This document shows, piece after piece, positions 199 to 9,289 of a DNA stretch of 17,520 nucleotides. A program made the position numbers and the translations under genes. Under the pieces are notes generated by a model. That model searched no databases. It had not been told where the DNA came from and was given only the letters and a program-made list of their open reading frames with translations. The DNA comes from Polyrhizophydium stewartii. Taxonomy: Eukaryota; Chytridiomycota; Chytridiomycetes; Rhizophydiales. The stretch lies in the NCBI GenBank assembly GCA_027604665.1, contig JADGIZ010000269.1:1-17520 (forward strand), given 5' to 3'. Each line of letters opens with the position of its first letter. Within the stretch, counting starts at the first letter, position 1.

Positions 199-3100
199 CT
201 ACTTGGTCTCTTTGCCTCCATCAGCTGATTCTGCGACGAGTTCGATCGCTTCTTCCTCAGCAGCCTCTTCGAGGATCGGAATGCTGCCGAGGCCATGCGG
301 CTCGATTGCGTTCACTTCACTTGCGTTGTTGCGTACGTTCTCTAGTGATGCTGCACCTGTGTCTTTTTCTGGCAACATTGGAAGGTATTTTGGCTCAGCG
401 CTTGCCGCCGCCGTTGCGCTTGCGTCGGACGCCGCCGATGCAGCAGGGAAACCAGGCTGAGCGACGAGATCGGGCTTGCTTGCAATCCGCGCCTGTGGAG
501 CCGCGCCAGAGCGCATTAGTTCGACGCGCTGTCTGTAGAGCTCGAGGAATTGCTTCTTGTATCCGGCGAGCAGAGAGTCGAGCTGGCCGATCGAGTACTT
601 GTACTCGCGCACCTGAGCCTGGTACATATTCAGCTCGGTGTCCATGTGCCGGAGCTGCACATGCTTCTGCTTGAGCTGGGCTTCGAGCTCCGAGATCTGC
701 TCAATCGCCTCTGGGCCGACCTGCTTGGCGAGCATTTGCTTGAGGTGCAGGTAGAGCTCTTCCTGCACCTTTATGAACTCCTCCTTCTCCTTGTCTTCCT
801 TGTTCTTGACAATCAGTTTCTTTTGCAGCGTGTGCAGCAGCTGGATCATGTCAAACGCCTGCGGGTTGCTGCCTTCGAGCTTGCGCCACCTATGAACGTT
901 AATCGGATTCTCGAGCTCTTGCTCGAGTGCCTTGACGCGCATCTGCTCCTGCATCACTTCACTCTGCAGGCGCACAATCGTTTTGGACATGCCATCGAGC
1001 CCCGACGTCGCCTCGGCAAGCATCTCCGACAACTGCCGAGTCTCGTGTATCTCGCCGCGCAGCTGTGCAATAATTTTGAGCTTCTCCTTGTAGTAGAGCT
1101 CGCCGCGAAGGAGCGCCAGCTGCTGCGTCTTGATTTTGTCGTAGACGTGCGTGAGCTCGTCGTTTCGGCGGATGAGCTGAGCGCTGAGATTGTCCCGTTC
1201 CGAGATCAAGACTTGCAGCGCATTTTCTTGGCGCGCACGCTCAACCTCGGCCTCCTTGACAAACTGATCGAGCTTGACTTCCTCGGCCAGCTGGCTGCGG
1301 ATGTACGCCTGCGCAAGCTCATTTTGGTTTTTGAGCTTCTTGATCTCGTCCTTGATCTGGTCGATGTCCTTCTTGAGCTTCACATGTTCCTCGTTCTCGC
1401 GTGTCAGGGTCGCTTCCTTGGAGTTGATGTCGTCCTTGTAGCCGTTGATCTGAAAATTCATGATCTTGAGCTTGCGCTTCATTTCTGCGATCTCAGACTG
1501 CGATTCGATCAGGTGCTTCGAATGCAGGTTGCGCTCGCTCTGCACCGCCTCGTAGAGATTCTGCTGGTGCTTCAGCTTGGCCTCGGACTGCGACATCTGG
1601 CGCTTAAACTCAAAGATCTTGAGCTCCTGCTCCTTGAGCTCGTGCAGGCCGTTGACGCATTGAGCCTGCATCCGCGCAGCCTCGGCAATGTACTCGTCGC
1701 GCTCCACTTCGATGCGCCGCGCCTCCTTGGTGTGCTCGAGCGTCTCTTTGCGGAACTGCGCGACTTCGAGCTCAATGTTGTACCGCTGCTGCTTTTGCAG
1801 GATGACAAGATTCGTGAGCTTCTGCGTCTCGCTTTGCGCCTTGAGGAAGTTGCCGGAGAGGATGTCCTTTTCGCGCGACAGATCGTCAATGTTCTTCTTC
1901 ATGACCTCGACCTGACGGTGCAGACGATCGACTGCGACCATGAGCGCATCGTTCTCGGACCGAATCGCCTTGCGCTCCATCTCGGCCTGGATTTTCTGCT
2001 CCTCGAGGAGCCGATTCTTCTTGAGCAGCGCCTCCTTGATGCGCGTCACTTTCTTGACCTCGGCCTTGTGGCTTGCGAGCTCCTTCTCCTTGAGCTTGAG
2101 CTCGTTCATGGCCGTCTCGTTTTCATCCATGAGCTGCGAGGTCTGGCTCATTTGCTCGTCGTAGTCCTGCTGGAGCTTGACGGTGCGCGTTCCGAGTGAC
2201 TCTTGGTCGCGCAGCAGCTTTTCGATCATTTGCTTCTGCTGGCGGATCTGGTTCTCGATGACGGCAATGTCCTCTGTCGCGCGATTGACAGCGTCTTGCT
2301 TGCTCTGGACTTCTTGCGACTTGACCGTGACAATGACGCGCAGCTCGCGCAGTTCGCGATCGAGACGGTCCTTGTTGCGCAGCTCGGTGTCGATCTCCAT
2401 CTTTTTGTTGACGTTCTTCTCCTTGAGCGAAAAGATCTCGCGCTCAAAGTCGCGCTTCTGGTTCTCGGTGATCTTGATGCTCTCGGAGATCTCGGTCAAG
2501 CTGTTGCGCAGCGTCACGATTTTCTCGAGCTCGTTCTCCAGCTCCTTCGTCATCTGCTCCTTGGCGGCGACGAGATTGTTGATCGTCCGCTCCTGGACCG
2601 CGCTCAGGCCAACGCCCTGCTTGATCGTCGTTGTCAAACTGGTAATATCATGCTTGAGCTGCCGCAGGTCGTTTTTTGCAAGATCCTCGCGCTTGTTGCT
2701 CTGCTCGAGCATCTGCTCGGCGCGCTTGATCTGCTGCCGAAGGGTGCGCAGCGTCTGCTGGTCGTGGTCGAGTGCCTTGACGCCGTCTGCCTGCTGCTCG
2801 ACGTTGCTGAGGAATTCGCGTTGGATCTCCTCAAACTGCACAAAGAGCTCTGACGCGTGGCTCTGTGTGCGCTCGAGTGCTCGGAAGACCTTTTTGTATT
2901 CGGATGCGAACCGAAAGAACGTGTCTTCCGCAGAATCGGCCTCGCTTTTGATCTCAAGAAACTCGTGTTGCATCTTGGCGAACTCGGCCTCCCACATCTC
3001 CTTCTCCTTGCGCGCGGCGACGATCTCGGAGCCGTCGAGCGGCGCGGGGGTGCCGCCAGATGTGTCGGCACCCCCAGCTTGCGCAGTTGCGGCCAAACCG

Positions 3101-3330
3101 GCTCCCCTCAGGACCGTCTCGGACTGCGCGGACGCGACGGCAGATCCGCCAGCTTGGTCGGTTTGCTGCGAAGCGAGAACGGGATGCGAGCCCTGCATGG
3201 CCGGGATGGCGCGCGTGGCAGCGTTTCTCTTTGGGCCGCCGAGGAGTGAGCTGCTCGATGCAGCCACTTCACGCTCTCTGCCCAACTTGGCCGGCGCCTC
3301 GCCGGGTGCGGGCTTTGCGGGGTCAGACAT
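199..3330 (-). CDS. CFAP58: Cilia- and flagella-associated protein 58 (CFAP58/CCDC147)
   Basis: A single open frame of 1043 residues, almost entirely charged coiled coil (about residues 105-935; Glu/Lys/Gln/Leu heptads). Family-diagnostic stretches are visible: a QQNLYEAV..RN.. segment followed by EMKRKLKIM near residue 600, an ERD..AQLIRRNDEL segment near 710, and the conserved NVHRWRKLEGSNP block near 812, followed by a C-terminal ELNMYQAQ..EYKY motif. Known CFAP58 proteins are axonemal or basal-body-associated coiled-coil proteins needed for normal flagellar structure and motility; this role is from the family. Length exceeds the human protein (about 870 aa) because of an Ala/Ser/Gly/Pro-rich N-terminal extension of about 100 residues and an Ala-rich, acidic tail of about 100 residues. 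No intron is needed, unlike its neighbours. The ATG is the first in the frame and lies 7 bases from the proposed start of the divergent CatSper-like gene. Confidence 0.93.
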   Translation of the reverse strand: MSDPAKPAPGEAPAKLGREREVAASSSSLLGGPKRNAATRAIPAMQGSHPVLASQQTDQAGGSAVASAQSETVLRGAGLAATAQAGGADTSGGTPAPLDGSEIVAARKEKEMWEAEFAKMQHEFLEIKSEADSAEDTFFRFASEYKKVFRALERTQSHASELFVQFEEIQREFLSNVEQQADGVKALDHDQQTLRTLRQQIKRAEQMLEQSNKREDLAKNDLRQLKHDITSLTTTIKQGVGLSAVQERTINNLVAAKEQMTKELENELEKIVTLRNSLTEISESIKITENQKRDFEREIFSLKEKNVNKKMEIDTELRNKDRLDRELRELRVIVTVKSQEVQSKQDAVNRATEDIAVIENQIRQQKQMIEKLLRDQESLGTRTVKLQQDYDEQMSQTSQLMDENETAMNELKLKEKELASHKAEVKKVTRIKEALLKKNRLLEEQKIQAEMERKAIRSENDALMVAVDRLHRQVEVMKKNIDDLSREKDILSGNFLKAQSETQKLTNLVILQKQQRYNIELEVAQFRKETLEHTKEARRIEVERDEYIAEAARMQAQCVNGLHELKEQELKIFEFKRQMSQSEAKLKHQQNLYEAVQSERNLHSKHLIESQSEIAEMKRKLKIMNFQINGYKDDINSKEATLTRENEEHVKLKKDIDQIKDEIKKLKNQNELAQAYIRSQLAEEVKLDQFVKEAEVERARQENALQVLISERDNLSAQLIRRNDELTHVYDKIKTQQLALLRGELYYKEKLKIIAQLRGEIHETRQLSEMLAEATSGLDGMSKTIVRLQSEVMQEQMRVKALEQELENPINVHRWRKLEGSNPQAFDMIQLLHTLQKKLIVKNKEDKEKEEFIKVQEELYLHLKQMLAKQVGPEAIEQISELEAQLKQKHVQLRHMDTELNMYQAQVREYKYSIGQLDSLLAGYKKQFLELYRQRVELMRSGAAPQARIASKPDLVAQPGFPAASAASDASATAAASAEPKYLPMLPEKDTGAASLENVRNNASEVNAIEPHGLGSIPILEEAAEEEAIELVAESADGGKETK

Positions 3331-3337
3331 GATTTAG
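3331..3337. promoter_or_regulatory. Minimal spacer between divergent CFAP58 and CatSper-like start codons
   Basis: Only seven bases (gatttag) separate the CFAP58 ATG (minus, 3330-3328) from the first possible ATG of the CatSper-like gene (plus, 3338). The plus frame has a TAG directly before that ATG. If both starts are right, the two 5' untranslated regions must overlap and each promoter must lie inside the other gene. If the CatSper start is really further downstream, the shared promoter would be 3331 to about 3545. No TATA box or convincing RFX X-box is visible. Confidence 0.35.
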
Positions 3338-4944
3338 ATGCAGACAAGGGCTGCGCGATTCGCAAGACCGGACAGCTCACGCCCTCAGGTCATTCTTATC
3401 CGCTCTGCGGCCACTCTTTTTGTTTGCTGGCACGCCACGCGCCGCGATGCCCTGTGAGACATGCCGCAGCGCGGGCGGGCCTGCGCCGCTGCCGCTGATG
3501 AAGCCTGCTCCACCAAGCCGCACACCCGCCGCTGCCTGACTTTCGCAGCCTCCTGAAAAACCTCATGAAGGCACGTTGTTGGCGGTGCCGGGCTTCCACG
3601 CGACGTTGACCCTCACTCTGCGTAGTCTTCCACCTACGAGTTGTTCATGCTCGTTTTCGTGTGCGTTGATGCCGCAAAAACCGTCTTCGAGACGGATCTG
3701 CTCGCCGAGTCCGAAAGCAACGCCTCAACCGCCATCTACGGCGCCATGCAAATCTTCACGCTGGTTGCCATAGGCATCTACATTCTCGACATTTCCGTGC
3801 GCATCTACATCGAGCGACTCGCGTTCTGGCGCAACGCTTACAACACATTGGATTTTGTTGTTGTGCTCATCTATGTCGCGTTCTGGATCACGTCTATCGC
3901 GATGCCGACGTATGCCGTGTATTCTTCGCTGCGCATTCTGCGAGGTAGTTGGCAACACGACGCCAGGAATCAGCACACAGGTGGCTGACACGAGATTGCA
4001 GCTGCACGGATCGTCCGAATTTTTCGAATTATTCCATTGATCAGAGGATTGCAAGTTGTCGTTGACGCTTTGGCGCGCACAATGTGCACAAATGTTGTCG
4101 ACCTCATTATCTTGCTCGTGCTTTTTCTTTTCATTTTCTCTGTCATTGGCCATTTCTTGTTCGGCATCGAGGGGGCACCCAATGCCAGTCGGGACTGGGG
4201 CACGCTGCTAGAGTCGTTCAACACGCTTTGGGTCTACGTCTGCGCAGACGGTTGGACTCCGTACCAGGACAATCTCACCACTGATGGCTTCACAAACTCG
4301 CCCGCCTTCACGGTGATTTTGATTTCCCTGGGCAACTTCATCATCGCTAACTTGTTCATTGGCGTCATCTGCCAGGCAAGCGACCCTTGCCCATGCGATG
4401 CTGGCCGTGCGGACGCTAACGATAAACAAAGAACATTGACGAGGCGTCGCGCGCCGAGCGTCAGAGACACGCACATCAGCGGCGGCAGGCAAAGATTGCG
4501 AAGCGAGAACTATTTTTGCGGAAGCAGCGGCGAGATATGCTGCAGCTCGTTGCACAGGTTGGCAGTGGGTTTGCGCAGCTGTTTTCTTGTCCAAAGCCTG
4601 ACACGGGCGAGGGGCGACGCAGAAGTCGAAAAAGGACCTCGATTTCCAGAGCATGGTCAAGGACATGGTTGGCACGCTGCGCCACGACGAGATCATCCCC
4701 ACGAAACACCTATCACTCAATCTCACGTGGCTCGAGACATTTGTCGTGACACTGCATTATCACGAGAACACCATGTTTCGATGCCAGCAATGCCATTTCG
4801 CCATGGCGCACGCTCTCGCCGAGTACGGTAAGTCTGGCGCTCTAAAGGCACCAGCTGCGACGTGAGTTGCTGACGCAAATATTCCGATATATTTTGCGTC
4901 GCCAATCAGTCGACAAGCGCCTTGCCTCGAAGCAGGAGCTCTAA
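3338..4944 (+). CDS. CATSPER3: CatSper-type voltage-gated calcium channel subunit, closest to CatSper3
   Basis: Spliced model: 3338-3453, 3549-3570, 3626-3944, 4002-4375, 4432-4557, 4623-4827, 4910-4944; all phases agree, giving 398 aa, the length of human CatSper3. It encodes one six-helix ion-transport domain. S1 begins near residue 50. S4 reads RILRAARIVRIFR, with arginines every third residue, assembled across the intron at 3945-4001. The pore helix and filter contain CADGW (Asp near residue 235), matching the T/A-x-DGW pattern of CatSper3. S6 ends GVICQ, followed by a basic coiled coil and a C-terminal block similar to CatSper3. CatSper channels are flagellar-membrane, pH-sensitive calcium channels assembled from four different subunits; that role is family knowledge. 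Exons from 3626 on are firm. The first two, including the ATG and a 22-nt microexon, rest on phase and weak similarity. Confidence 0.85.
3571..3625 (+). other. Probable GC-AG intron in the CatSper-like gene
   Basis: The donor is AAG|gcacgt and the acceptor ctctgcgtag, with a TTGAC branch-like site 14-18 bases upstream of the acceptor. At 55 bp it matches the local intron size. Removing it joins microexon codons (CTC ATG AAG) to the S1 exon (TCT TCC ACC) in phase. It depends on the less certain 5' part of the gene model. Confidence 0.5.
4376..4431 (+). other. GC-AG intron in the CatSper-like gene
   Basis: The donor is CAG|gcaagc and the acceptor aaacaaag, with a GCTAAC branch-like site. Length is 56 bp. 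It joins the end of S6 (GVICQ) in phase 0 to a charged coiled-coil exon starting NIDEASRAERQ. No GT donor nearby keeps the frame, so the GC donor is well supported. Confidence 0.85.
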
Positions 4945-9023: not shown

Positions 9024-9289
9024 GAGTTCTGGGCAAAGCCGCGGCTCGATCGTTTTGAACAGCCCAACGCTCGGGAGATTGACCGACAGGCAGCAATCGT
9101 CTTGCGCCAGCCGTGCTCTGCGAGTGCTGGAATGCGCATCCTGCACGAGCTGCGGCCGCGGCCGAGACACACAATCTAAATACGGCCCGTTCGCGGCGCG
9201 ATGCAGCCAGAGTGCAAGGAGACTGGAGGATCCCCTGAGGACGCGGCGCGAACGGGCTTGGGTGCGGGCCGCCCCAACGCTTTCCGGAC
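9024..9289. promoter_or_regulatory. Divergent intergenic region between VPS18 and NUP205
   Basis: About 266 bp separate the chosen VPS18 start (minus) and the NUP205 start (plus), so it presumably carries both promoters and both 5' untranslated regions. The only AT-rich patch is ctaaata near 9176-9182, roughly 110 bases before the NUP205 ATG. I would not call it a TATA box with confidence. The minus strand stays open through 9170, so part of this region could instead encode a longer VPS18 N-terminus. Confidence 0.4.

Follow-up and report, generated by a model that had tools for sequence, protein, structure and literature searches.

CFAP58 and a CatSper3 gene as divergent neighbors, probably paired by chance, in the chytrid Polyrhizophydium stewartii

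The window analyzed here is a stretch of 17,520 nucleotides of Polyrhizophydium stewartii DNA that makes up one whole contig (C269, JADGIZ010000269.1) of a genome assembly of 12.86 Mb and 690 contigs. A gene on the minus strand (199-3330) consists of a single open frame of 1043 amino acids plus stop, which begins at the start codon at 3328-3330 and closes at 199. Its product matches the Pfam family CFAP58_CC (PF21771) with 218 bits against a cut-off of 27 (E 1.9e-64), and seven CFAP58-type chains were matched in a search of solved structures, the best being 8glv_LP (E 4.8e-154, residues 109-961). With both the central coiled coil and a near full-length match to axonemal CFAP58, this gene is CFAP58, the name given to it in the preliminary description of the locus. 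The protein resembles CFAP58 of PDB entries 8glv, 8j07, and 9fqr over residues 109-961 but extends past the matched part at both the N- and C-terminus. The closest of the 37 homologues listed (one of which is the window's own) is the eukprot entry Hompol1 (70%), which we take to be Homolaphlyctis polyrhiza, followed by Batrachochytrium dendrobatidis (68%); the host is thus a chytrid and, judged by CFAP58, is near Batrachochytrium. A second, intron-containing CFAP58-family gene adjoins a metacaspase gene on another contig (C115:14314-15432).

The plus-strand gene next to CFAP58, which ends at 4944, encodes a channel with a single six-helix Ion_trans domain (PF00520, 100.7 bits) and six basic residues in S4. 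Its exons at 3626-3944 (S1 to the start of S4), 4002-4375 (S4 to S6, including the pore), 4432-4557 (tail), 4623-4827 (conserved tail), and 4910-4944 (last exon, with stop codon TAA) join in phase. The intron at 4376-4431, and probably also that at 3571-3625, is of the GC-AG type. The stop codon (TAA, 4942-4944) overlaps the stop of VPS18 on the opposite strand (CTA, 4941-4943; VPS18 end by our own reading), the two genes being arranged tail to tail.

When the channel domain was searched against solved structures, the top two chains were CatSper3 (96.8 and 95.8 bits), and the match to mammalian CatSper3 (PDB 9ubw and 7eeb), the highest-scoring solved structure, spans S2 to S6. Cav and Nav chains come close behind (95.7 bits for Cav), which might suggest some other six-helix cation channel instead of CatSper3; however, the Cav score is the sum of several weak repeats, the best single one having 31.6 bits versus 96.5 for CatSper3. 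The pore could be read in the same direction, in that the CatSper filter is T-x-D-x-W and that of mammalian CatSper3 is TVDGW, whereas the window protein has CADGW, with D and W kept and T replaced. Across 18 aligned rows, the first filter position is C in 14, T in three, and F in one. The form C-x-D-x-W was observed in 14 of these 18 rows, and P0014 (TASNW) and P0018 (TSSGW), presumably blastoclads, have no acidic residue. Against another kind of channel, animal CatSper3 can be aligned to the tail that follows the channel domain (for the exon at about 4623-4827, 39% identity to the Saccoglossus protein in an alignment of 67 residues, E 2.2e-10), and 20 of the 31 homologues carry the source-given name CatSper3 or CatSper3-like, the rest having a general name or none. 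The best of these 31 is Entophlyctis helioformis P0001, with 68% identity over the whole query. This protein and that of Kappamyces (P0002) are similar to the window protein in length, in the S1-S6 channel domain, and in a tail conserved to the last residues (LASKQEL, compared with LLSKQEL in P0001), and differ from it by ordinary divergence only. We consider it very improbable that the gene encodes a channel other than CatSper3. With CatSper3 as the best solved match and chytrid CatSper3 proteins as the best relatives, the earlier assignment to a CatSper3-like channel holds, and by sequence comparison the plus-strand gene qualifies as a CatSper3 orthologue, whose product would function as a channel.

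CFAP58 (minus strand) and the channel gene (plus strand) are divergent, as had been claimed. Their spacing had been put at 7 bp, and an ATG at 3338 is indeed this close to the start of CFAP58, but the simplest gene model from this ATG drops a helix encoded at 3520-3570, and an ATG at 3447, 116 bp away, fits better. Gene models that keep phase were listed for each ATG between 3331 and 3619, allowing at most two introns. In the simplest one from 3338, 3338-3388 is joined to 3626; this model was set aside because the matched helix is lost, and its intron would be 237 bases long, compared with 56-82 bases for the four introns further downstream. Within this helix, FRSLLKNLMK (3541-3570) aligns gap-free to the segment FSSYLRTLLK in P0001, the closest relative. 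In comparison with P0001 it is the top-scoring 10-mer in the interval, and its score is reached by two of 1000 shuffles and by none of the 116 blocks taken from elsewhere in the contig. When the comparison is made with the mean of 13 relatives (four of the 17 have gaps and were left out), FRSLLKNLMK again marks the top position, but weakly so, as its score is reached in 50 shuffles out of 1000 and in 16 of the 116 blocks. Codon scores are -0.18 for 3338-3388 and +0.50 for 3520-3570, each over only 17 codons, and +0.28 for another frame of 3338-3388.

Starting from ATG 3447, introns at 3454-3517 and 3571-3625 yield an in-phase gene. Its probable first coding exon is 3447-3453 (ATGCCCT); the intron after it (3454-3517) is of the GT-AG type, with GTGAGA as donor and CTGAT as a branch-like site, and leads to a probable second coding exon (3518-3570) containing the pre-S1 helix HPPLPDFRSLLKNLMK. 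A reading with GT-AG introns only, which includes a small exon at 3549-3584 (PPEKPHEGTLLA), is also in phase but was rejected, being like no relative in the alignment. A two-intron model from ATG 3338 (exons 3338-3453 and 3504-3570; introns 3454-3503 and 3571-3625) is likewise in phase and retains the helix, and would place the channel start 7 bp from that of CFAP58 with overlapping 5' ends. We regard this start as unlikely: 3338-3451 has a codon score close to zero (+0.01), the 41 residues that the two-intron model adds find no match in the alignment, and N-termini are short in several relatives, though long in P0008 and P0018. Most likely, CatSper3 would start at ATG 3447, leaving a probable intergenic stretch of 116 bp (3331-3446) with the 5' ends of both genes.

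That both products are linked to the flagellum was rightly stated in the preliminary description: CFAP58 is an axonemal coiled-coil protein, and CatSper3 would be one pore-forming subunit of a flagellar calcium channel. Their genes form a divergent pair whose start codons are 116 bp (or 7 bp) apart. This short gap has to accommodate the two proximal promoters at least, which makes some shared regulation physically possible. The earlier proposal of a shared bidirectional promoter can be extended to a selected, co-regulated flagellar unit, in which a promoter in 3331-3446 turns on both genes during zoospore formation, and the divergent order, the short gap, and the flagellar nature of both products would agree with it. 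According to the accessible text of one study, flagellum-specific genes of the chytrid Rhizoclosmatium globosum are preferentially expressed in flagellated stages (PMC13358043). A comparable arrangement, as described in the accessible parts of two further papers, is the NeoR/RGC photoreceptor cluster of chytrids, which likewise consists of divergent genes for zoospore functions and for which transcription from one region has been proposed (PMC12264004, PMC8815786). However, these sources describe NeoR/RGC as common in various chytrids and as encoding subunits of one complex, whereas none of the relatives tested showed the CFAP58/CatSper3 pair, whose products form no known complex.

The same head-to-head order might be expected in related flagellated genomes if the pair were such a unit, but it was not seen in any of the four species common to both homologue lists, where CFAP58 and CatSper3 are located on contigs of differing size: 331,197 and 133,994 in Boothiomyces JEL0866, 625,471 and 108,443 in Boothiomyces JEL0838, 6,575 and 13,449 in Kappamyces JEL0680, and 4,199 and 23,054 in Quaeritorhiza haematococci. 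No contig size is common to the two lists as a whole (30 and 36 listed contigs). Separation is firm for the two Boothiomyces strains only, since the contigs of Kappamyces and Quaeritorhiza are short and an assembly break could part neighbors there; in addition, the Kappamyces CFAP58 row comprises four member sequences, and its contig may therefore be that of another strain. Of the closest relatives, Hompol1 is without contig data and E. helioformis has no CFAP58 among the 37 listed. In Hompol1, the two genes have widely separated numbers (HPOL_001162 and HPOL_001881), which is a hint only.

Regulatory sites of the RFX/FOXJ1 type, which had been suggested for 3331-3625, give little encouragement either. 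The contig as a whole lacks a strict X-box, and the interval contains one of the 16 degenerate X-box matches of the contig (at 3548, inside the probable coding exon) and one of its 11 forkhead-like matches (at 3421), the latter near chance density. RFX and forkhead genes were not found in the genome, but the controls of this search were without any eukaryote and no conclusion follows. The missing X-boxes are weak evidence: in the accessible text of a study on the chytrid Spizellomyces punctatus, ciliary promoters showed no enriched motif (PMC10530576), so that a missing X-box is in keeping with chytrids and is by itself no disproof of co-regulation.

Short divergent gaps are also found between genes of unrelated function. 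On the same contig, VPS18 (minus) and NUP205 (plus), identified by Pep3_Vps18 and Nup192 matches, are head to head with 266 bp between start codons (9024-9289, starts by our own reading) and served as an internal control with unrelated functions. The second CFAP58-family gene has the metacaspase gene (Peptidase_C14) as its divergent neighbor, with about 191 bp between starts as read, and a Pfam search of its downstream neighbor gave no match. The CatSper2 gene of this genome has no identified flagellar neighbor. From 184-342 flagellar orthogroups (PMC13358043) and a rough guess of 4,800-6,000 genes, chance alone would yield roughly 1.4 to 6.1 divergent pairs of flagellar genes. With contigs of differing size in all four species, no strict X-box, and unrelated divergent pairs at such distances, a meaningful shared promoter is unsupported, and a selected, co-regulated flagellar unit appears quite improbable. 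Slightly less probable still would be, in this chytrid lineage, one compact promoter that times the production of axoneme and calcium channel together under a regulator other than RFX. We infer that CFAP58 and CatSper3 are two ordinary flagellar genes, whose divergent position, most likely 116 bp apart, would result from the dense packing of a 12.9-Mb genome, and that their pairing most probably arose by chance.

An Ion_trans search of the genome up to E 10 yielded six loci, including the window channel and the CatSper2 gene on contig C26. In the solved-structure search, the latter has 64.8 bits to CatSper2 versus 34.2 to CatSper4 and 32.5 to CatSper3, with three Cav chains scoring higher, and its fuller joined translation has 41 protein matches, of which the best is from E. 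helioformis (63%) and several are named CatSper2. A BAR_2 gene lies on one side of it and a TRIP4-like (zf-C2HC5) gene on the other. Its pore reads TLDQW by our own splicing. The remaining four loci are HCN-like, BK-like, TRP-like, and two-pore K+ channel-like, by our own reading of the translations only. No CatSper1 or CatSper4 was present among the six loci, in a search limited by introns, and the CATSPERB_C and CATSPERD propeller profiles had no match in the genome, from which no conclusion follows because the controls were equally silent.

No report of a linked CFAP58-CatSper pair was found in the open literature, which leaves most subscription papers outside this scope. The locus represents no new kind of system but a correct annotation and an ordinary adjacency, and it matters little by itself. 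If the pair were co-regulated, it would offer a handle on how chytrids, which seemingly do not use RFX for cilia, time the building of the flagellum. The accessible texts of earlier studies indicate that CatSper1-4 have an early eukaryotic origin with lineage-specific losses (PMC5362262, PMC2572835) and that CatSper subunits are present in some flagellated fungi but not universally kept (PMC13358043). To the chytrid record, the present analysis adds one CatSper3 and one CatSper2. Batrachochytrium rows are present among the CFAP58 homologues, yet no Batrachochytrium-named row occurs among the 31 CatSper3 or 41 CatSper2 homologues (six and 15 of which, respectively, are without organism name), which hints at a possible loss of CatSper in Batrachochytrium. 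Considering that the host is near Batrachochytrium by CFAP58, this group may help to place CatSper losses in fungi.
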